A stretch of 64,000 nucleotides of DNA from contig NEWS02000001.1 in the NCBI GenBank assembly GCA_002869845.2, positions 26,727 through 90,726 of the forward strand, written 5' to 3'. The position numbers were made by a program, and so were the translations under genes. The notes under the pieces are model-generated. The model saw nothing but the letters and a program-made list of their open reading frames with translations, was not told the origin of the DNA and did not search any database. Below, piece by piece: positions 7,704 through 55,898 of this stretch. The number at the start of each line of letters is the position of its first letter. The first letter of the stretch is position 1. This stretch comes from Nitrospira sp. CG24B (GTDB lineage Bacteria; Nitrospirota; Nitrospiria; Nitrospirales; Nitrospiraceae).

Positions 7704-8246
7704 ATGGCTACATCTGTCAGCTCTCTAGACCTTCTCCTCTCATCTCCTGGCAAGACAGAATCGTTCGGAAACGCTATTGGCCAGGTGCTTCGTGGAGGTG
7801 AGGTACTTGCCTTGATCGGTGAATTGGGAGCTGGTAAGACAGCACTGGTCCGCGGGGTCGTGGCTGGCCTCGGCGTCCCAGCTGCTTCTGTCACGAGTCC
7901 GACGTTCGTGCTGGTCCATGAATACCAAGGGAGGCTTCCGGTCATTCATATCGATCTATACCGATTGCAGAAGCCAGAAGAAGCCGAATCGATTGGACTG
8001 TCCGATTACCTTGCGGATGACGTGGCCGTCGCCATTGAGTGGGCAGATCGGTTTCCCCAGCTTCTTCCGGAGGACCGACTTGAAGTGAGGCTCGCCCATC
8101 GAACCAGGATGACCAGAAGAGCTTTGTTGGAAGCACGCGGTTCACGCTCTCGCTCACTTCTCGCTCGCATCAAGAAGATTTTGCGTCGAAGCCCTCGATC
8201 ATCTCAGTCTATCCTGCAACCAGACAGAAAGACTTCGCCGCGATGA
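7704..8246 (+). CDS. tsaE: tRNA threonylcarbamoyladenosine biosynthesis ATPase TsaE
   Basis: [52 protein letters not shown]. Confidence 0.92.
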
Positions 8247-43870: not shown

Positions 43871-44635
43871 TTAGAACAGCCCCGCGATACCGGTGGCGAT
43901 CTTTTCTTGCACGATAGGAGTCGCTTCTGGAATGTCGAGACTTTTTTGCCGGATGTGGCCCACCATCCGCATCTGCTGCACTTTCGGACCGGCTGCGGCT
44001 TGACCGCCGACCGGCTGGCCAAGAGGTTTACCCATCTTGCGATCGGTAATCTGCACGTCGGTGACGCACAGGTAGGTCACGCCATCTTCCTTCGGTGGTG
44101 GCTGCATGCCGGGCATCCCGCCAAAACCCGCGCCTCCGCCGCTCATGGCCATGGCCTGCCTCATCATGGCGCTCATATCCGGCATGCCTCCGCCCATGGA
44201 CATCGCGCTCATACCGGCCATGCTCATAGAGGGATCACCGCCGGTTGCAGTGACCGAGGCCATGACGGTTCCCCCACTGCTGACACCGGCTCCAAATCCG
44301 GCCTTCGCCACCTGTTCGGGCGTCACGCCCTCTGCGGCTTTATGACAGTAGACCACCTTGGCCTGAATCCAATAATTCGCTTGTTGGGGATCGGCGGAAA
44401 CTTGGTAGCCTTTGGCATTCAGCTTGGTCTGAATGTCGGTGAGGGCAATCTGTTGGTTCTCTGAAATATTTCGCAGCTGGAGATAGGCCGTGCGGTTCAT
44501 GCTGGGATCGAGAAAGACCGTGTTGCTGTTCATGAGGCCGGAGCGGATGACGTTGGAACAGCCGGTGGTCAGTGCGAGCAACAACAAGATCGTAAGAAGT
44601 AAGGGGTAAGGCGTGAGGCGATTATGCGAAGGCAT
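43871..44635 (-). CDS. TraT-like outer-membrane lipoprotein with Met/Gly-rich insert
   Basis: Lipobox LALTTGCSNV; NSNTVFLDPSMNRTAYLQLRNISENQQIALTDIQTKLNAKGYQVSADPQQANYWIQAKVVYC. Confidence 0.65.
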   Translation of the reverse strand: MPSHNRLTPYPLLLTILLLLALTTGCSNVIRSGLMNSNTVFLDPSMNRTAYLQLRNISENQQIALTDIQTKLNAKGYQVSADPQQANYWIQAKVVYCHKAAEGVTPEQVAKAGFGAGVSSGGTVMASVTATGGDPSMSMAGMSAMSMGGGMPDMSAMMRQAMAMSGGGAGFGGMPGMQPPPKEDGVTYLCVTDVQITDRKMGKPLGQPVGGQAAAGPKVQQMRMVGHIRQKSLDIPEATPIVQEKIATGIAGLF

Positions 44636-44637
44636 GA

Positions 44638-45336
44638 CTAAAAATTTCCGGCTACAGCGGCGCTCAGCTTCTGTTGTAGCAATGGTGTGGCTTCTTCCTC
44701 ATTCAGCTTTTTCTGATGCACATCGGCGGCCAGTCTGGTTTGATACACGCCGGGCTCCTCGCCTGTTCCTGTCTTCATTCCGCTTGGGACTGGCACGGGA
44801 CTCTGCTCGGTAATTTGCACGTCGGCCACGCAGGCATAATTCACGTCGTCCGGCATTTTGGGAGCAGATGACGAAGAACTGAAGAGATCACCGATGCCTT
44901 GGATCGCGCTCAACCCCATCGAAGCTGCGGCACCGCCCATCGCCCCGTAGGGTCCCGCCATGCTCGCCATGCTGGTGAGACCCTGCATGGCGCCCATCGC
45001 CGAGTTGAACGCGGATCCATAGCCGCTCGCCACCATCGCTTCAACGGGCATGTCCGGCTTTGTAATATTGCAATAGACGATGTTCGCGAGCACGACGTAA
45101 TGAGCGGCGCTGGGATCTTGGATGATCTGATAGCCCTTTGCGGTTAAACGGGCGCCGAGATCGGAGAGCGACACGCCTTGGTTGTCCGATGAATTGCGCG
45201 CCTGAATAAACACGGTCTTCGCCGTCGATGGCGGCAAGAAGAACGTATTGCTCGTGATGAGATCGGAGTCTTTGATATTGCCGGCGTAGGCGGGGAACGG
45301 GAGGCAGAGAGCGATGGTCAACGCGAAATAGCGCAC
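44638..45336 (-). CDS. TraT-like exported protein, paralog of the neighbour
   Basis: TSNTFFLPPSTAKTVFIQARNSSDNQGVSLSDLGARLTAKGYQIIQDPSAAHYVVLANIVYC aligns with the 43871 product; signal peptide. Confidence 0.6.
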   Translation of the reverse strand: MRYFALTIALCLPFPAYAGNIKDSDLITSNTFFLPPSTAKTVFIQARNSSDNQGVSLSDLGARLTAKGYQIIQDPSAAHYVVLANIVYCNITKPDMPVEAMVASGYGSAFNSAMGAMQGLTSMASMAGPYGAMGGAAASMGLSAIQGIGDLFSSSSSAPKMPDDVNYACVADVQITEQSPVPVPSGMKTGTGEEPGVYQTRLAADVHQKKLNEEEATPLLQQKLSAAVAGNF

Positions 45337-45411: not shown

Positions 45412-47481
45412 TTAAGGGCCGCCACTGCCGGTCGGTTGGGCCGTTTGGCTCGATTTCCGCCTCAGCGTCATGGTCGTGACTTCGTTGCACAGTTTGTTGC
45501 AAGTAGTCTTCATCGTCTTGGTTGCCAGCACGTCGCCTTGGTTCACGATCGTCCAGCCCTTCACGGGGAAACCAGCCAGTTGCCAATTGAACGTCATAAA
45601 CCGTGTGATATTGAACAGGCCGCTCCAGAAGGCCGTCGGCACTGGAGGCGGGGGAGGTCCTTTGCAGGGTATGACGCGCCCGATTTCATCCGTATCGCCT
45701 GGTCGAATGAACAGCCCATAATCCACCACCGCTCCGTTACGCTGTTGAGGCAAGCCCGCGGTCACATCGAACGTGGTTACTCCCTTTCCCTCGACGATCA
45801 CAATACAGGGCGCCATCAGTGACGGGACCGTCTCGTAATACAGCGGCCCCTGACCGACGTAGCCTCGCTCTCGCGTATACCGCAAGGGCACGACGGCGCG
45901 CGCATGCGATTTTCCATATTGCACCGTGCCGACGATCATGCTGTCGAACTCCAGCACCAGCGACAGCGCGGCTATTTGCCAGAGATTCTTGGACTTGATG
46001 CGGCCCGCCCTCGATGTGCCTTTGTTGACATAAAAGCCCGGCGGATCGTTCGGATCGCCCAAGTCCGATGGAGCGACAAACCGAAAGACGGCCGGCGTAC
46101 TGGGCGCAGTTCCGACGGAAGCCGGCGACGCATGACCGCCTCGATAGTCTTCGATCTCGGATAGCCGGCCCCAGGTCGGTTGAGCGCTCTTCACCGTACG
46201 GATCTCCGCTTTCACGTCGGTGGATTGGCCCGGCGCCACCTCCTCCGTTTTCGTCGGCGGAGTAAAGTGCAGTTTCACGCACTCGCTGCCGTTCTGCTGA
46301 TCGTCCGGCTTGTTCCATTTCTCTTCGGCTTCGCCATAGGCTTTCTTCGCGAGATACGCGATGATGTCTACGCCCTTTCGCGCCATCGAGAGGCAATCAC
46401 CGTCCAAGACCCCGGACATGCCAAGTGTTCCTTGTGACACCGTGCAAGTCGGAGCCGACATCTGCAGAATGCCGCCGCCCGGGTCGAGCACCGCCTTGAC
46501 CGTGGCGCGAACGGTCGTGGCTTCTGCCGCAGCATGTCTGACCAGACCTCCACCCCGTGAGGTCATTTCGCTCACGAGTGTCACATCCACCCGAATCTCT
46601 TTGAGCCTGGCCTCGTCCGTCACCTGACCCTCGGTTTGCGCGGTGACACTTTCCACCTTTCGGCTGATCGTCGTCTGACCACCCTCGGTGACCGAGCTGG
46701 AAAGGTCTACGGTGAGTTGAGCATCTCCCGACACGATCCCTTCAGCCGTCGGGCAACGCGGTACGACGGCCCTGATCTTCATCCCAAATTTCCCGCCCCC
46801 TGAGACGCTCTTGTCCTTCGCCTCGGCGTCGACGCCGAACCCATATCCGTCGTCTGATCCGACATGTTCATTGTCGACTGCCAGCGTGTCGAGCGTCATT
46901 GACACAGTCGCGGACCCCTTGTCGCTGGATTGGGTCATTGAGCCGCCGCCGGTGTGCATGGCACCCCCCATTGGTCCGTCCACCAGAGTCAGCTGAGGAT
47001 CTCGATTGGGCGCCGCATGGCCAGAAGGGAAGAAGCGCTTGAGCGTTGGAGGGTTTGGATAGGATACCGGCCGCACGATGGCTGGTGATTCATCCAATTC
47101 CAGCCATGACGCGTTCGGCAGTGTTTGTCGCCGCCGTTCCAGCTCCTTGCGCGCCTGCTGTTCGACTTGCGGGAACATGGTGCGGAGGTTCGGCAGATGG
47201 GGAGTGAGCATCCTGTCAAAAGCTGGCCGCGCGTCCGGTGATAGCCAGTCGTTCGACAGGATCTGTTCAAAGAAGAAACGGCTCCTCTTTTCTGAAATCG
47301 GTTCGGCCATGAGCGTCATCCACATCGATTGCAGACGGATGCTCTCGATCATGTGATCGTGAATATCCCGTTGTTCTTCTGCGTTCAGCGACAGCGGCTT
47401 ATCGAACTGTTTGGCGGTCTGCTGAGCTGAGGCAATGACCGGAATCAGGTTCGGCACAAAGCTCGTGAGGAGGCAGAACAC
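45412..47481 (-). CDS. Exported protein, paralog A of the four-member family (start uncertain)
   Basis: RCPTAEGIVSGD...; ECVKLHFTPPTKTEEVAPGQSTDVKAEIRT; C-term WSGLFNITRFMTFNWQ...KGWTIVNQGDVLATKTMKTTC. Confidence 0.75.
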   Translation of the reverse strand: MFCLLTSFVPNLIPVIASAQQTAKQFDKPLSLNAEEQRDIHDHMIESIRLQSMWMTLMAEPISEKRSRFFFEQILSNDWLSPDARPAFDRMLTPHLPNLRTMFPQVEQQARKELERRRQTLPNASWLELDESPAIVRPVSYPNPPTLKRFFPSGHAAPNRDPQLTLVDGPMGGAMHTGGGSMTQSSDKGSATVSMTLDTLAVDNEHVGSDDGYGFGVDAEAKDKSVSGGGKFGMKIRAVVPRCPTAEGIVSGDAQLTVDLSSSVTEGGQTTISRKVESVTAQTEGQVTDEARLKEIRVDVTLVSEMTSRGGGLVRHAAAEATTVRATVKAVLDPGGGILQMSAPTCTVSQGTLGMSGVLDGDCLSMARKGVDIIAYLAKKAYGEAEEKWNKPDDQQNGSECVKLHFTPPTKTEEVAPGQSTDVKAEIRTVKSAQPTWGRLSEIEDYRGGHASPASVGTAPSTPAVFRFVAPSDLGDPNDPPGFYVNKGTSRAGRIKSKNLWQIAALSLVLEFDSMIVGTVQYGKSHARAVVPLRYTRERGYVGQGPLYYETVPSLMAPCIVIVEGKGVTTFDVTAGLPQQRNGAVVDYGLFIRPGDTDEIGRVIPCKGPPPPPVPTAFWSGLFNITRFMTFNWQLAGFPVKGWTIVNQGDVLATKTMKTTCNKLCNEVTTMTLRRKSSQTAQPTGSGGP

Positions 47482-47682
47482 CAGAGAGAGTGCGCCGTGG
47501 ACTCGTCGTGTTCCGGTGATGATAATCCTCTTGTGAGGTGGGAGATGCCGCCCAGATTGTACGAGACCAGCGGTCCCTATACAAGAAATCTCTCCTGCCT
47601 AGGTGGTTGAAGAACAGCGCCACATCCGCTAGCATGGCGGCTACCATTGCCGCTTTGGTTGTTCCAGTAGGGAGGACTATCG

Positions 47683-49815
47683 ATGCGATTCCGCATCCTC
47701 TTTTTCCTTGCCCTGCTCACCACTGCAGCATGCGGCGGCGGAGACAAGCATCTGCCGTCTTCGAACCCGCCTGAGTACGATCCGACGAAACTCTACACCA
47801 CACAGGCTACGCCACCGAGCGCGCCAGCCACGTCGGTTGCAAAGCCGATAGAACCAGTCCCCTCGCCGATACAGTTACCTCCGCTGGAACCGGGACCGAA
47901 TGAAAAGGGCGAATGGAAGAACGTGCCGGTTAGCCCGGAGTCGCTGCAATTATTCAAAAGCGTCAATAGCCCCTGTGAAGCTTTGTCGAAAATTGTCCAG
48001 GGCCTTGGCAGTACACAACTCTTCGCAGGGAAAGACGGTCAAGCGTTCAATAAATTGCTCGGTGCTCAGGCCGAATCGATTGCGCAATCCTTAGATCAGC
48101 AGTTGTTCGAGAACTTCAAGGCACTACTCGGCCCGACTGTCGCCGCTTGTCCCTCGCCAACGTCTACGCGCAAGAGCAGTCTCGGCGAGTCTTTTCGCGC
48201 ACCTCGCCTCCTGTTGGCCACAGGACCGGCTCAGGGATCTTTTCAACTCGCACAGGCGCCGGCAGTTTCCCCAATAAGAAGCGAATCGAGACAACAGGCG
48301 CCTCCGGGCTGGATTGGATGGACAACTACGGCTCGATCGATCTGGCCGGAGACGGCAGGGAATAGAAGAAGCATCGTCACAATCCTTGGCGGCAAGGCGC
48401 TCAAGTGTCCAGCACCCGATGGAGTGGTCCCAGGAGATTTCGAGTTTGCTGTTGTTCTTGATCAGACAGTTGTGGAGTCAGGCATCACGCGAATGATTCA
48501 CATCGGCCTCCACGCGTCAGCGACGCTGAAGGGGCAGGTGGGTGACGATGCCAAGGTGCAATATATCGAAGGGGACCTTTCTACTGTCGCTGAGCGGAAT
48601 GGCATGGATGTGCCAGCTTCACTTAGAAGACAGCGTAGTCAATTTCGATTCGTTCCGAGTCGCGATGAATTGTGGTCCGGGTTTCCCACCAATGTTACAG
48701 CCTCAGCAGCTGGATGGGATATGGAAGGTGCCACTCCACAAGAAAATAGCTTCGTGAGTGATGCTATTGCAGCGGTCATGCTTTGGGGAGGTCAAAACTA
48801 CTTGGCTGCTGAAGTCGAATGGAACAAGCCCAACACCTGTGTGGAGATTGTCTTCAATCCCCCCACGAAGACCAAGAAGTTCGAGCCAAACGCATCGACG
48901 CCTGTCAAGACTGAGCTGCGCACGAAAAAAGAACAGGCGGTCGTTCCCGCGAAACTCAAGGATGTAAAGGAGCGGCCCAGGGAGGGCACTGGCCGTGTGT
49001 CGCCGAGGGAAGACAAGTCAGAGATCAATAGGCCGGCGACGTTTACCTACCAGGCGCCGGCGACCAAGGTGCAGCACAGTGGATTCCGGGTGAAGGCGGT
49101 CTCCCGCGCGGGGGTCGCAGAAGAGAAGGATGGGGAATGGGAACTCGCTCCTTCTTCTTATGTCCTTGAATTCAAGTCGCACATCGTTCAGGAGCCGTTG
49201 AATCTTCCGAATCCCTCATTCGGCATGTTTATGAGTTCGAATGGGTTCGATGCCCATGTCCAGGCGACCGTCCCGCTCCGGCGCAGGGACGATGGCCAAT
49301 GGGTTGGGGAAGGCGTGATGCAGTACGCCACTCACACATTGACTCAGCCGGCCTCGTGCGAAATCCGCATTCAGGGCACCGGCATGACCACCTTTCATGT
49401 GAACGGTGGTTCGATCAGCAGTGACCCTGATCCATTTGCCGTGAACTTGATTATCCTTCCAGGACAATCAGGCGAAGTCGCGGAAACCCACTGTACCAGC
49501 GGTAATACGCCCCAAAAATTAAAAGAGCTGTTTGCATCGCAAGGTGTCCAAGGCGGTGAAGCTCATGTCGCGTCAAAAGGTGGGGGATGGAGCGGGGCCT
49601 TCAACTTCACTCGCTTCAGGACATTCAAATGGGAGAGCGGTAGGCAAGGCTATGAGATCGGAGGCTGGACACCGGTGCGCGACTCCGACGTGATTGCCAG
49701 AAAGACGATGTCGGTCAATTGCAGCACCATGGGAATGAGCGCATGCCGGGAAGAAACGACGCTGACCTTGCGACTGGCGGATGAGCCAACTTCAGGTACG
49801 TCCCCGCCGCAATGA
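47683..49815 (+). CDS. Lipoprotein, paralog B of the four-member family
   Basis: Lipobox LLTTAACGGG; KCPAPDGVVPGDFEFAVVLDQTV; TCVEIVFNPPTKTKKFEPNASTPVKTELRTK; WSGAFNFTRFRTFKW...GGWTPVRDSDVIARKTMSVNC. Confidence 0.8.
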   Translation: MRFRILFFLALLTTAACGGGDKHLPSSNPPEYDPTKLYTTQATPPSAPATSVAKPIEPVPSPIQLPPLEPGPNEKGEWKNVPVSPESLQLFKSVNSPCEALSKIVQGLGSTQLFAGKDGQAFNKLLGAQAESIAQSLDQQLFENFKALLGPTVAACPSPTSTRKSSLGESFRAPRLLLATGPAQGSFQLAQAPAVSPIRSESRQQAPPGWIGWTTTARSIWPETAGNRRSIVTILGGKALKCPAPDGVVPGDFEFAVVLDQTVVESGITRMIHIGLHASATLKGQVGDDAKVQYIEGDLSTVAERNGMDVPASLRRQRSQFRFVPSRDELWSGFPTNVTASAAGWDMEGATPQENSFVSDAIAAVMLWGGQNYLAAEVEWNKPNTCVEIVFNPPTKTKKFEPNASTPVKTELRTKKEQAVVPAKLKDVKERPREGTGRVSPREDKSEINRPATFTYQAPATKVQHSGFRVKAVSRAGVAEEKDGEWELAPSSYVLEFKSHIVQEPLNLPNPSFGMFMSSNGFDAHVQATVPLRRRDDGQWVGEGVMQYATHTLTQPASCEIRIQGTGMTTFHVNGGSISSDPDPFAVNLIILPGQSGEVAETHCTSGNTPQKLKELFASQGVQGGEAHVASKGGGWSGAFNFTRFRTFKWESGRQGYEIGGWTPVRDSDVIARKTMSVNCSTMGMSACREETTLTLRLADEPTSGTSPPQ

Positions 49816-49876
49816 AACATCATGACGGATTGCGAGTGGGCGTCGGGCGGAGACCGACGTGGACAGGGTGTGAGTA

Positions 49877-51184
49877 ATGGAGCGCCCCACTGGAGATGAC
49901 AATCTCGTGTTTGCGCGCATGACAGCCGGTTTTATCTTAGCTACGATCGTCGCTGGAGGTGCCCCTCTCGTGCTCGCGCAAGAACGATTGGACTTGACGC
50001 GCTACAGTCTCACGATACCGACCGGCTGGTCATCGACGGTCGAGAGTGAGCGCTGGAAGCTGTCCCCCACGGGAGGCGAGAACGAACTGGGCATGGTGCC
50101 GGTTGGAAATGGCTTGCCGATCGGCCCGGCGCTCACGCATGCCGATGCGCATCGGCAACTCTGGGCCACCGCGCTTGGCAGTCACCGAGTGTTGCAAGCC
50201 AACCCTACCCAAGAACAGAAGGGCGACGATGGACGCACGTGGCTGATCGAATCAGCGGCGATCGATGCAGGCGGTGTGCCTTATCTCTTGATTGTGAGCA
50301 TGGTGGAACTCGACGGTCGTGCGGAGGGATTCCTTGTACTGGGGACGCCGCAAGCGATTGAACGGCATCAGCAGGCGATCGATTCCATCTTAAATTCGGT
50401 GCGCCCTCGTGGAATGCCAAGCGCGGTACTGACTCGTGCGCGTGATACGGTACCCGTGTTCGGCCAACCGAGTCCACTCGGCAATCCTGGACCAAATCGT
50501 TTGGCCGGCGTGTGGACTACCACAACTCACGAATTACGAATCGGGATGTCCGGGCTTGCGAATACACCATCGGTTTCTGAATTGATCTTGTTCGCTGATG
50601 GGTCGGCGCTCTGGAGGATGCCCGGAGAGGGTCTCTTAGGTTTTGATCGAGCAACACACCGCGCCCGCTCTCCTGAGCGATGGGGCACCTACCAGCTAAA
50701 GGACAAGCGGCTGACGATCACGAGAGGTAGAGATCCAAGGCAGTATGTCGTGCTGCTGGATGGAACGCTTGAGAACCGATATGCGGAGGGTGGGCAGGAA
50801 CGTACCGGCGAGAAATTTCTTTTACGTCCGAGTCTCGACAACGTGCGGCTCGACGGTGAAGTGCGGCGTAAGGACCACTGGCCGGCACCGGGGAATACCA
50901 GCGGAATCGGCACGTTGCCCGGCCTCACCTTCTCAAAAGACGGGACATTCCGTGATGAAAAACTGCTGTGGATCGTGCTGCCTGAGCGGACAGGAGAAGA
51001 CAAGGCGGCGCATGAGGCGCGTGTCGCGCCGGGAACTGGGCGTTACCGGTTCGAGCATTGGACGCTGGTGCTCCAATACGACGACGGCCGGGTCAACCAG
51101 ATCAGTTTCGTCCCCACGGACCGGGAGCACCCAACCAAGGGCGCGATCTTGAACGGGTACCCGATTGAGCCGAAGCCCTACTAG
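49877..51184 (+). CDS. Hypothetical exported protein (start may be 49919)
   Basis: MTAGFILATIVAGGAPLVLAQERLDLTRYSLTIPTGWSSTVESERWKLSP; no family recognised; codirectional with the paralog cluster. Confidence 0.7.
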   Translation: MERPTGDDNLVFARMTAGFILATIVAGGAPLVLAQERLDLTRYSLTIPTGWSSTVESERWKLSPTGGENELGMVPVGNGLPIGPALTHADAHRQLWATALGSHRVLQANPTQEQKGDDGRTWLIESAAIDAGGVPYLLIVSMVELDGRAEGFLVLGTPQAIERHQQAIDSILNSVRPRGMPSAVLTRARDTVPVFGQPSPLGNPGPNRLAGVWTTTTHELRIGMSGLANTPSVSELILFADGSALWRMPGEGLLGFDRATHRARSPERWGTYQLKDKRLTITRGRDPRQYVVLLDGTLENRYAEGGQERTGEKFLLRPSLDNVRLDGEVRRKDHWPAPGNTSGIGTLPGLTFSKDGTFRDEKLLWIVLPERTGEDKAAHEARVAPGTGRYRFEHWTLVLQYDDGRVNQISFVPTDREHPTKGAILNGYPIEPKPY

Positions 51185-51220
51185 GGTGCTATCTTGCAAT
51201 CTATACAATTGGGAAGACGC

Positions 51221-52615
51221 ATGGGAGCTCTGATTCGGTTTCTGAAATCAGGACGATGGATGGGGTTGAGACTCTTGGTCTGTGTCACAGGAATATTAGG
51301 TACGGTGTGGTTGGTGCAGCAGCCCTCACTCGTTCAAGGGGCGAAAAATTCCTGTCCACTCACCGTGCGACAGGAAACCAAAGCCGCTAAAGCGTTCAAG
51401 AACCTGGCGCCGGTGTTTCAAGAGCCCCGCTGCCTGAACTGCCATGGCGCAGTGAATCCATTTTCCCGAACGGGTGGACACGGTGGGGGCTACATCGATA
51501 TTCGGAAAGAGGCGCAGCAGTTTCTCAAGATGCCGAACTTCCAGACTTCCCTGACTGTGGGGGCCGACCCTGACGGGACTCGGACCGCCAAGGCTATTGC
51601 GCAACTCAGGGAAATCGCTGAGAGTGCGTCCGAAATCTCTGACACTGATCTCATCCGGCAGAAGGCCTTCGATCCGATGCGGAAGGCTTGCAAAGAATGT
51701 CATATCTCATCCTGGATTATTCCGATGAGACATAACCATTTTGTCGGTCGAAGCGCCACGGACATGTGCGTACACATGAAGACGTCCATACTCACTAATC
51801 AGCCGGACCTCTTTCTTCGCCACATGCAGGATGACGAACTGGTTCGGGAGGGATTTAAGGGAAGACGTGGCCTGCTCGATGCGATTGGCCCGGAACCTCC
51901 CACGATGTCATTCGCCACGCTTGAAAAGTATGCCAATGAATGGATCGACGCCATGGGTGGCAAGTTTCACCGCCCTCCCGATTGCGGGTGCGTGGTTCAC
52001 GGTGATTACATTCTTGAATTCAGTTCGAAAATTGTCTCAACAAGCAAGGTTGCTCCTGCGCAATCACAGGCGTCGGCGATCATTCGCCTGGAAACCAAAG
52101 ATGAGGAAGTCCCCAATGGCGAAACGAAGTACGCGGGACAAGGGATGATCGGCTACCAAACTGGTCCGTTGCCGAAGTGGAATACGTGCGACCCATTCGT
52201 TCAGGGAAAAGGCACGGTGCCCATGCGCGTGTTTCAGGCTTTCATTCACATCGATGAGCCGCCGGGTGAGTCGATGGTATCTCCAGGAGGTTCGGCGAAG
52301 ATTGAACTGCTCTACGGCATACTCGGAATGTCGCAGGAAATCAGCACGGGCATGCACTATATGCTTAATTATAAATGTGTCACCAATCAGCCCATGCTGG
52401 ACCCCTTCTGGTCCACCATGTATGTCAGCGGGCGTGGCGAAATAAGCACCGATCCGATGAAAATGTTTCTATTGAAAGATTGGACTTATATAGGCCGAGA
52501 CGGTGTGGTGGCGACTAAGACGCTCAGAAGCACGTGTGGTGGCATGTGTGACGAGGAAGTGGCGACGTTTACGCTCAAAGAGGGAGATGGTTCTGGAGAT
52601 TCTTCACCGAAATAA
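51221..52615 (+). CDS. Diheme c-type cytochrome segment fused to the family C-terminal domain (paralog C; track start TTG 51194)
   Basis: CLNCHGAVNPF and CKECHISSW (two CxxCH); C-term LLKDWTYIGRDGVVATKTLRSTCGGMCDEEVATFTLKEGD. Confidence 0.8.
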   Translation: MGALIRFLKSGRWMGLRLLVCVTGILGTVWLVQQPSLVQGAKNSCPLTVRQETKAAKAFKNLAPVFQEPRCLNCHGAVNPFSRTGGHGGGYIDIRKEAQQFLKMPNFQTSLTVGADPDGTRTAKAIAQLREIAESASEISDTDLIRQKAFDPMRKACKECHISSWIIPMRHNHFVGRSATDMCVHMKTSILTNQPDLFLRHMQDDELVREGFKGRRGLLDAIGPEPPTMSFATLEKYANEWIDAMGGKFHRPPDCGCVVHGDYILEFSSKIVSTSKVAPAQSQASAIIRLETKDEEVPNGETKYAGQGMIGYQTGPLPKWNTCDPFVQGKGTVPMRVFQAFIHIDEPPGESMVSPGGSAKIELLYGILGMSQEISTGMHYMLNYKCVTNQPMLDPFWSTMYVSGRGEISTDPMKMFLLKDWTYIGRDGVVATKTLRSTCGGMCDEEVATFTLKEGDGSGDSSPK

Positions 52616-52727
52616 AAGTTGTGCGGATTTTATGGGCACTTGGCGCGCGTGAGGCGTTCCGGTAAACCCTGACCCTGCACCCAAATCCGACCGTTCACCA
52701 TCTGCCCTCACTGCGCCGTCTACTGCT

Positions 52728-52934
52728 GTCAGACCGCCGTGCCCATACGCGATTCGTCGACGAAGGTCTCCGTTGAATCATCGATGGCCCGACCCTGACG
52801 GCCCTTCGCCGGAAGGATGTAGAGTTCTTTCGCGTCGATCTTGTCTTTCTTCTCGGGCGGCGGCGTCATTTCGTAGACTACTGGCCGGCGGTGATCCGCC
52901 ATTTGCAGCTCGGGATTGTAGACGCTGTTGAACT
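52728..52934 (-). repeat. 207-bp duplicate of the hpnR-like 3' end (copy 1, truncated gene remnant)
   Basis: Near-identical to 54353-54559; I count 6 mismatches over 207 bp. Confidence 0.95.
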
Positions 52935-54291
52935 CAATGGGGGCTATGCCAAGAAATGCCCTACACCGGACCTCGGCGAGCAAGGAGCCTATGTCGTCGA
53001 GGGCGACTATGAATTCTCGCTGGTCGTGGACCAAACGATCAATTATTCCAATTCCGTTCGAACCGAGTACTACGCCGTGGGTGTTCACGCCACCCTCAAA
53101 GGCCGCGTCGACGATGATGCGAAGCTCCAGTACGTCGATCTTGATGCGTCGTTGGTGTTCGGGCGTGGAGGGTCGAATGCGGCGACATCGTTTGCTCATC
53201 AACACCAGCATGTCCGGTTCGTGCCTGATCGTGGAACGGGAGGCATGCCGTCGCAGTTTTCCAATTGGTCGGTCTCGGAATGGGACTCTGCTTTGGCCGG
53301 TACAGCCCAACGTGGCGCGATGAACATGTTGCTGTTGGCCGTGACGTGGTTCTCCGGGCCGTTCTACCTGGCCGCTGAAGGCGAATGGACGACGCCCAAC
53401 ACCTGCGTAGAGATTACGTTCGAGCCAGCCACTAAGACGAAGAAACTTGGGCCGAACGAATCCGTCGCGGTGAAGACGGAGCTTCGCACCAAGGAGGGAT
53501 CGACAGTTGTTCCGGCGAAGTTCAAAGAGGCGAAGGAGCAGCCAAAAGAAGGCAATGGCCGTGTGTCGCCGAGGGAAGACAAGTCACAACCTGGCACGCC
53601 CGCCACGTTCTCCTACAAAATGCCGGAGAAGCGGGTCAAGCACAGCGGTTTTTTTGTGGGAGCTGTCTCTCGCGCGGGCGTTGCGGAGGCGAAGAAGGGA
53701 GAATGGGAAGTGGCGGATGCGTCATATGTCTTGGAATTCCAATCCAGAATTGTCTCACGTGAGATTACGGAGCCGGTCGAGTCGGTGGCTGCCGCGAAAG
53801 TCGTTTTGACGCCGGTGGAAGGAAAGGAGGGTTGGTATCGCGGAAGCGGCATGCTGGGTTATCAGACCGGTCCACCTCCAAACAGAGCCCCCTGTTCGAA
53901 TCTTGTTATGGGTCATGGGACTACTGGGTTCGAGGTTGCCGGAATATCCATCAAACTGCCTGAGGGAACCGGCGCAAGTAGTAGTCAGACCGGTTCAGCT
54001 GACATTGAGTTGCACTACCTGATCCATCCAACACATGAAACGGTACGGCCATGGACAATGGAAGAATTCAAGTGTGTTCCGGGAAAACAGTTGCCCGATC
54101 CATTCTTTTATATGATGTACGCCGTCGCTCGTGGCGCTGATGAAATTAACCTCTTGAAGGGCTGGACCTACGTCGGCAAGGATGGTGTAGTGGCGAGGAA
54201 AGTGCTCAGGGGCAATTGCGGCGACTCCTGCGAGGACCAGACCATCTTTACGCTGAAAGAGGCGGACGACGGTGCAGCCCAGCCGAAGTAA
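52891..54291 (+). pseudogene. Paralog D of the four-member family, 5'-truncated; ORF opens inside antisense hpnR-like remnant
   Basis: First 15 aa (MIRHLQLGIVDAVEL) are antisense hpnR; then GGYAKKCPTPD...VEGDYEFSLVVDQTI, TCVEITFEPATKTKKLGPNESVAVKTELRTKEG, LLKGWTYVGKDGVVARKVLRGNC. Confidence 0.75.
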
Positions 54292-54352: not shown

Positions 54353-54559
54353 GTCAGACCGCTGTGCCCATACGCGATTCATCGACGAAGGTCTCCGTTG
54401 AATCGTCGATGGCCCGACCCTGACGGCCCTTCGCCGGGAGGATGTAGAGTTCTTTCGCGTCGATCTTGTCTTTCTTCTCGGGCGGCGGCGACATTTCGTA
54501 GACCACTGGCCGGCGGTGATCCGCCATTTGCAGCTCGGGATTGTAGACGCTGTTGAACT
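54353..54559 (-). repeat. 207-bp direct repeat copy 2 (3' end of the intact hpnR-like gene)
   Basis: Matches 52728-52934 in the same orientation. Confidence 0.95.
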
Positions 54560-55898
54560 TCCAGAGCATCTTGATGAAGTTGGTTTGGCCCTTCATCAAG
54601 TGCCCAGCTGCGATCTTGGCCGTCCCCTTGAGCGCAGCCCAGCCCAAATGCTTCTTGTTCAAGACCTGTTGGGTCTTGACCAGTTCCGCGTAAAACTCCG
54701 GGAGCGGCATCTTGGTCGGCATCACGGCGTGCTGAATGTCGAACAGGCGGTAGTCCCGCGTGTGCATCTTGCGGGATTCCGTCACCCAGCTCTCCGTGCC
54801 AGGATACGGGGTGTTGACGCTGATATTCACGATCTCCGGGATGTCCAAGCACCACTGCCGAACAACTTCAAACCGTTGCCGGTCCCAGTCCGGATCAGCG
54901 ATGAGATTGATTGCGACGGTGATTCCGAGAGATCGAGCGAATTCAAGCGCCTCGAAGTTTCGGCCCAACGAGATGCGTTTGCGGTGCATCTTGAGGCCTT
55001 CCGCATCGATGGCCTCGACGCCCAAGAACATGTACTGCAATCCGAGCGTCTTCCAAAATTGGAAGACTTCCTTGTTGCGCAGCAAGACATCGCCGCGCGT
55101 CTCCATATAATACTGCTTCTTGATTCCGCGCCGCGCCACCGCTTCGCCGATCTCCATGCCCTGTTTGCCCTGGATGAAGGCGACGTCGTCAACGAGGAAA
55201 ATCCCTGGTTCCTGAACTTGCTCCAGCTCCTCGACGGCTTTCTCCGGACTGACCATGCGATAGCTACGCCCATAAAAGGTCCAGGCGCTGCAGAAGGAAC
55301 AATCCCATGGACAGCCTCGTGCAAACTCGACCGAGGCGCAGGGGTCGAGCACACCAATGAAGTATTTGTGCCGGTTTCTGAGCAGATCGCGCGCGGGACG
55401 GACATCATCCAGATTTTCGATGAATTGTGGCGGTGGTCCTTCACCGTCCAGCGTCACCACTCCCGGGACTTTGGTGATGGCCTTGCGATCCTGTTCAACC
55501 GCCATCAGCAATTTAGGAACGGCAACCTCCCCTTCGCCCTTGAGGACGCAATCGATGGCCCCGTTGCCGTGTTCCAAAAAGTCCTTCGCCACAAATGAGG
55601 CACTATGGCCACCGACGAAGACGAAGCTGTTGGGCAACTCTTTTTTCGTTAACTTTGCCAGGTCCACAATCTCCGGAACGTTCGCCAGATAGTTACACCC
55701 GAATGCCACCGCGTCGGGTTTCCAGGAACGGATGAGCGCTTCATAGTCTTTCCACGTATCAGCCTGCAGATCGATCAGGCGAACTTCATGCCCAGCTTGG
55801 CGGACTGCCTGGGCCACCATCTCCAAACCGAGCGGCTCCAGACGCAGATAGATCTTGGTGTACATGAGCGGACCTGGATGGACTGCGAGAAACTTCAT
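54354..55898 (-). CDS. hpnR: B12-binding radical SAM protein, HpnR-like (hopanoid C-3 methylase)
   Basis: MKFLAVHPGPLMYTKIYLRLEPLGLEMVAQAVRQAGHEVRLIDLQ; radical SAM motif EFARGCPWDCSFCSAWTFYGRSYR. Confidence 0.75.
   Translation of the reverse strand: MKFLAVHPGPLMYTKIYLRLEPLGLEMVAQAVRQAGHEVRLIDLQADTWKDYEALIRSWKPDAVAFGCNYLANVPEIVDLAKLTKKELPNSFVFVGGHSASFVAKDFLEHGNGAIDCVLKGEGEVAVPKLLMAVEQDRKAITKVPGVVTLDGEGPPPQFIENLDDVRPARDLLRNRHKYFIGVLDPCASVEFARGCPWDCSFCSAWTFYGRSYRMVSPEKAVEELEQVQEPGIFLVDDVAFIQGKQGMEIGEAVARRGIKKQYYMETRGDVLLRNKEVFQFWKTLGLQYMFLGVEAIDAEGLKMHRKRISLGRNFEALEFARSLGITVAINLIADPDWDRQRFEVVRQWCLDIPEIVNISVNTPYPGTESWVTESRKMHTRDYRLFDIQHAVMPTKMPLPEFYAELVKTQQVLNKKHLGWAALKGTAKIAAGHLMKGQTNFIKMLWKFNSVYNPELQMADHRRPVVYEMSPPPEKKDKIDAKELYILPAKGRQGRAIDDSTETFVDESRMGTAV

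Follow-up and report, generated by a model that had tools for sequence, protein, structure and literature searches.

The window, a stretch of 64,000 nucleotides from Nitrospira sp. CG24B, carries four open reading frames, designated A to D, between two genes for TraT paralogues (T1 and T2) on one side and hpnR on the other (Table 1). All four ORFs lie where the first-pass annotation had placed them, to within one start codon: ORF C begins at TTG 51194, where the internal ATG 51221 had been taken. T1 and T2 both exceed the PF05818 cut-off of 31 and cover profile positions 9–214 of 214, and a putative N-terminal cysteine for lipid attachment is present in T1 and absent from T2 (...AYAGN). Because A, T2, and T1 are on the same strand, with gaps of 75 bp between A and T2 and 2 bp between T2 and T1, they are a candidate operon. 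A 12-mer containing the TAGCAT of the promoter-like element upstream of B is common to 20 upstream regions among those compared, and the full element sits approximately 95 nt ahead of the codon for the lipid-bearing cysteine. A c-di-GMP-like riboswitch was also considered for this conserved stretch; the Rfam search was empty, and a promoter is the better reading.

Table 1. Genes, modules, and other features of the locus (positions in the window).
Feature	Position	Strand	Remarks
TraT paralogue T1	43871–44635	-	PF05818 132.7 bits, E 2.1e-38; lipoprotein signal ...TTGCSN
TraT paralogue T2	44638–45336	-	PF05818 123.6 bits, E 1.3e-35; signal peptide without lipobox
ORF A	45412–47481	-	N-terminal region, core class 5, Ig-like domain, C-terminal class 5
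ORF A, C-terminal class 5	45415–45981	-	
ORF A, Ig-like domain	45982–46311	-	
ORF A, core class 5	46312–46881	-	
Promoter-like element TTGAAG-N17-TAGCAT	47608–47636	+	Upstream of B; conserved in relatives
ORF B	47683–49815	+	Lipoprotein signal, KHLPSSNPPEYDP motif, helical linker, core class 2, Ig-like domain, C-terminal class 3
ORF B, KHLPSSNPPEYDP motif	47764–47784	+	
ORF B, core class 2	48262–48831	+	
ORF B, Ig-like domain	48832–49146	+	
ORF B, C-terminal class 3	49147–49815	+	
ORF E	49877–51184	+	Exported protein, no known family; between B and C
ORF C	51194–52615	+	Signal peptide
ORF C, cytochrome-like two-CXXCH head	51194–51988	+	
ORF C, C-terminal class 2	51989–52615	+	
Duplicate of hpnR 3′ end	52728–52934	+	207 bp, 97%; original at 54353–54559; replaces 5′ end of D
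ORF D	52891–54291	+	5′-truncated cassette; no signal or conserved promoter
ORF D, core class 3	from about 52935	+	
ORF D, Ig-like domain	53398–53712	+	
ORF D, C-terminal class 1	53713–54291	+	
hpnR, hopanoid C-3 methylase	54354–55898	-	TIGR04367 912 bits, cut-off 650

The C-terminal domain attributed to all four proteins is genuine: A–D are paralogous over their C-terminal ~190–220 residues, and A, B, and D are additionally homologous across the core and the C-terminal domain together, i.e., ~450 residues. BLASTP aligned A with B at E 3e-47 over 479 columns, B with D at E 9e-91, A with D at E 2e-33, C with D at E 2.5e-34 over the last 207 residues, and A with C at E 1e-10. As had also been stated, ORF C has neither the core nor the C-V-[EK]-x-F block, and its matches are restricted to its last ~207 residues. 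The export signals that the first-pass annotation assigned to A–C can be read from the sequence, being of the lipoprotein type in B and non-lipid in A and C, whereas D is probably not exported. Searches of the four ORFs against Pfam, NCBIfam, PHROGs, and PADLOC gave nothing above curated cut-offs, in keeping with the claim of an undescribed family. The observation of a four-paralogue exported family sharing a C-terminal domain is therefore confirmed at the level of sequence, and its function, previously given as unknown, can be narrowed to that of a Nitrospiraceae locus for lipoproteins that swap modules and are linked to TraT.

A sequence search of the PDB gave a single 37-residue match that looks like chance (E 0.0036), the remainder being at E 0.58 or worse. 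The predicted fold of B is of moderate quality (mean pLDDT 67.7), with parts of the core above 90, and a fold search with this model gave 652 matches from the PDB and 307 viral ones at E ≤ 10, of which not one reached E ≤ 0.001 and whose superpositions were meaningless; the model of C (pLDDT 39.9) is unusable. Exposure is thus not readable from structure, since the B model is only moderate and no fold was matched. An origin in a mobile element was rejected, the B protein having no match in 72,556 plasmid and 50,697 phage records. Internal duplication between the core and the C-terminal domain was likewise discarded, with no hhalign match among those listed above probability 30.

Briefly, the standard gene of the family encodes a lipoprotein signal, the unique KHLPSSNPPEYDP motif, a linker, a core, an Ig-like domain, and a C-terminal domain, and in the predicted structure of B the linker is helical, the core beta-rich, and the last two domains Ig-like and beta, respectively. 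Standard members with an intact N-terminus have a hydrophobic stretch and then a cysteine, mostly as C-[GS]-G, that ends the signal ahead of KHLPSSNPPEYDP; lipoprotein signals were judged by regular expression and by eye, and some members miss the strict lipobox. In ORF B, Cys 17 is followed by Gly, with no Asp at +2, and its orthologues mostly have C-G or C-S; one of these orthologues, in the cultured species Nitrospira moscoviensis, is encoded at 8001–10178 of L040. C and A carry no lipid-anchor motif. Clustering of the extracted loci yielded five core classes and six C-terminal classes (ct1–ct6), and besides the five cores there are an unrelated core of 500 residues and the cytochrome-like head with two CXXCH motifs. 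Identity between core classes is 15–39%, as against 75–89% within multi-member classes, and the corresponding ranges for the C-terminal classes are 16–44% and 74–82%. At least 11 combinations of core and C-terminal class occur: core 3 with ct1, ct2, or ct3; core 4 with ct1, ct3, or ct6; core 1 with ct3 or ct4; core 2 with ct3; core 5 with ct5; the cytochrome-like head with ct2; and the unrelated core 6 with ct2 or ct6. The last arrangement is found in L047, L048, and L093, where the same anchor precedes the ~500-residue core 6. Classes ct1–ct5 are homologous (pairwise hhalign E ≤ 3.5e-11), and ct6 had no hhalign partner among the matches listed; cores 1–3 are clearly homologous, and cores 4 and 5 more weakly so.

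The head of ORF C contains CLNCH at residue 80 and CKECH at residue 166. Both motifs are kept in its relatives L036, L038, and L049, and L075 has CLNCH and CQQCH; owing to this conservation the head is probably a two-haem cytochrome fused to the shared C-terminal domain, the best Pfam cytochrome profiles giving E 0.057–0.089, below the cut-off. In G361, of the same order, a relative of the head that lacks the shared C-terminal domain directly adjoins a TraT gene (L075: TraT at 307–987, two-CXXCH protein at 1006–2403). ORF D has no signal, lipid anchor, or conserved promoter element. The missing signal is accounted for by the copy of the hpnR 3′ end that forms the 5′ end of D; this duplicate lies ~1.6 kb from its original, a segmental duplication having truncated D. 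The best reading of D is that of a truncated cassette, probably neither exported nor even expressed in its present form. ORF E recurs beside or between family genes in L036 (91%) and L097 (78%). Furthermore, Nitrospira RSF1 carries B-E-C-hpnR (L036) and A-T2-T1 (L046) on separate contigs and not at their ends; the two blocks adjoin in the window, which indicates a recent rearrangement.

Among 396 genomes of the phylum, several of the positive ones being draft MAGs, the A/B/D profile matched 28 and the C-terminal profile 27, with no match to either outside Nitrospiraceae among those listed. A scan of 84,980 species, made with two core peptides only, recovered Nitrospira and one likely contaminant: a Rhizorhabdus MAG contig (L044, NZ_JAGMXV010000379.1) that encodes A at 92% together with the TraT pair was not accepted as true spread and is probably Nitrospira contamination. 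T2 matched 75 of 175 genomes of the family, usually as a T2-T1 pair, and 60 neighbourhoods around these matches were extracted for locus comparison. In Nitrospira-type genera, the start of a family gene is usually 28–170 bp from T2 on the opposite strand; the window is an exception, as the neighbour of T2 is A, on T2's own strand. On the right, hpnR is a frequent boundary of the variable locus in Nitrospiraceae; in 17 of the 19 loci where it follows, 31–188 bp separate it from the last family gene. Empty loci (L104, where T2 is followed by hpnR, L112, and L113) and loci with remnants only (L116, L117, and L120) also occur. The NPPEYDP codon pattern was found once each in 32 of the 175 Nitrospiraceae genomes, with none for the reversed-pattern control, and T2 homologues accompany it in 31 of these (hypergeometric p 1e-12, uncorrected for kinship). 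The linkage to TraT has exceptions in G115 and G210, whose core6-type gene lies away from the TraT pair, and G406 has the motif with no T2 match. On contig C3 of G437, around 266702–267144, the motif stands beside a 54-residue fragment of T2, which suggests decay of TraT at a locus otherwise retained.

Exchange of modules between versions of the gene is highly probable; in several pairs of loci, otherwise near-identical genes change class sharply where one domain meets the next. Between the B genes of the window and RSF1, whose closeness as genomes was judged from single genes, sliding DNA identity is 90–100% over most of the first 540 nt, 42–65% through the core, and mostly 87–100% downstream, and that of hpnR is 96–100%. 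L097 and L103 are 92–100% identical over ~1.2 kb and 28–48% from the C-terminal domain on, the difference between L094 and L096 is confined to the C-terminal domain, and L111 and L115 differ in the linker and core (core 39–58%) within flanks of 88–99%. When mapped on a tree built from T2, T1, and HpnR for 25 loci, core class needs 12 changes against a shuffled mean of 12.7, i.e., it carries no signal on the flanking-gene tree. The ct3 tree likewise requires nine changes of core class against 8.9 with shuffled labels, and no core class survives the AU test as a clade (p 0.009, 4e-5, and 5e-5). At third positions, window B and L091 share 82% in the core as against 57% in T2 and 70% in HpnR, and L095 and L102 share 98% in the core and 73% in T2; same-class cores can thus be much closer than the flanks in distant hosts, which implies that modules move between genomes. 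A ct3 gene is directly followed by 155–185 residues of ct2 in L107 and L108 and by 49 residues of ct1 in L114, and such orphan pieces 3′ of intact genes are what one would see if a newly acquired end pushed its predecessor aside. Partial copies may also act as donors, with D as a possible silent one.

Median dN/dS within classes is 0.14–0.24, compared with 0.069 for T2 and 0.028 for HpnR, indicating that the family proteins are kept functional under looser constraint than the neighbouring genes. Values so far below 1 give no sign of site-wise positive selection, and the diversity lies between classes.

The favoured explanation, held with slightly better than even confidence, is that of an outer-membrane lipoprotein, linked to TraT, that has become diverse through the exchange of modules and that would be exposed and would serve recognition or evasion together with TraT. 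It is preferred because an exported, lipid-anchored protein whose old versions are freely exchanged at one constant locus fits the pattern of surface molecules selected for variety, and because of the precedent of TraA and the rings formed by TraT, both considered below. Surface exposure by itself appears reasonably probable, and the partnership with TraT is put forward tentatively. Under the favoured explanation, a variable slot beside the TraT pair in Nitrospiraceae, often closed on its far side by hpnR, would encode an outer-membrane lipoprotein held by a lipid anchor with KHLPSSNPPEYDP, and its deeply diverged core and C-terminal versions would be swapped independently by recombination at domain boundaries, with other species and probably also partial copies within the same locus as donors. 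The purpose would most likely be the display of an exposed protein in numerous versions, by which a phage, grazer, or partner cell recognising one of them is escaped or matched, and selection would favour such variants; the lipoprotein would probably act with the neighbouring outer-membrane TraT assembly.

The linkage to TraT, and the candidate A-T2-T1 operon with its short gaps, would also suit accessory lipoproteins, periplasmic or on the inner leaflet, of a TraT-based envelope complex, whose classes co-evolve with the machinery and not with outside selection; the cytochrome-like head of C and the lone cytochrome-like protein beside TraT in G361 also suggest a periplasmic process. This account is considered unlikely, since T2 is conserved and its neighbour's class switches without regard to the TraT/HpnR tree; if every class depended on a TraT of its own, this would not be expected. 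Tandem paralogues in the window, L097, L098, and L101, the segmental duplication of the hpnR tail, and the frequent decay and fragments (L087, L100, L116, L117, and L120) are what a recombination-prone family would leave behind if its paralogues converted one another neutrally, with no selection for variety; this is rather improbable, because deep classes last across genera under purifying selection and single-gene loci switch class between sisters (L111/L115), which calls for donors from other genomes. A polymorphic toxin system, with an anchored N-terminus, an exchangeable C-terminal toxin, and orphan cassettes, is very improbable, for although the C-terminal cassettes (L097 vs. L103) and orphans (L107, L108, and L114) resemble such loci (PMC3482391), the interval to hpnR leaves no space for an immunity gene, ct1–ct5 are versions of one domain, the core varies as well, and no toxin model of Pfam, NCBIfam, PHROG, or PADLOC matched.

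Beyond the favoured explanation of an exposed, module-exchanging lipoprotein, a more specific and quite unlikely proposal is that chromosomal TraT and the NPPEYDP lipoproteins act together in a polymorphic system for recognition or exclusion at the cell surface, in which the TraT ring is constant and the lipoproteins set specificity. If true, specificity would be the choice of the phage, plasmid donor, or neighbour cell accepted, and the so far unexplained chromosomal TraT proteins would gain a partner and a role. A conserved genetic partner of chromosomal TraT is now available for testing. Nitrospira drives the oxidation of nitrite in soils, waters, and treatment plants, and what its cell surface displays to phages, grazers, and neighbours is little settled; phage resistance, floc formation, and strain co-existence could be examined against the class of this locus, and metagenomes could be typed for it.

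Among known systems, T1 and T2 are homologues of TraT, whereas the variable lipoproteins themselves are not. TraT, a surface-exclusion lipoprotein, assembles into decameric rings in the outer membrane; its chromosomal form, which is found in several Gram-negative phyla in variable context, is described as being without a known role; the parts of that account drawn on here do not mention a conserved polymorphic partner beside TraT (PMC11733297). None of the papers searched names Nitrospira and TraT together. Polymorphic toxin, CDI, and Rhs systems share downstream C-terminal remnants, a constant N-terminus, and an exchangeable C-terminus (PMC3482391). The Nitrospira family, by contrast, has no immunity gene or toxin domain, its C-terminal classes are homologous, and its core is variable. 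The meningococcal factor H binding protein is a modular, recombining outer-membrane lipoprotein, and resembles the present family in its few deeply diverged variants with recombined segments. Nitrospira is not known to face a host immune system. The variant groups of factor H binding protein have been described (PMC3731240); it is unrelated to the Nitrospira family, which swaps whole domains and even unrelated heads. The self-recognition receptor TraA of Myxococcus has phylogenies of its variable domain and of the full-length protein that disagree, which was attributed to horizontal transfer and recombination (PMC6372800). Both are cases of an outer-membrane surface protein, putatively so in Nitrospira, in which one portion is conserved and a domain attached to it varies, and phylogenies are likewise incongruent here. 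No sequence relation was found, the four ORFs having no Pfam match above cut-off to the PA14-like, Cys-rich repeat, or MYXO-CTERM features of TraA. Whereas TraA combines a PA14-like variable domain with Cys-rich repeats, MYXO-CTERM, and the partner TraB, the Nitrospira family has an N-terminal lipid anchor, two variable modules, and TraT as its neighbour.
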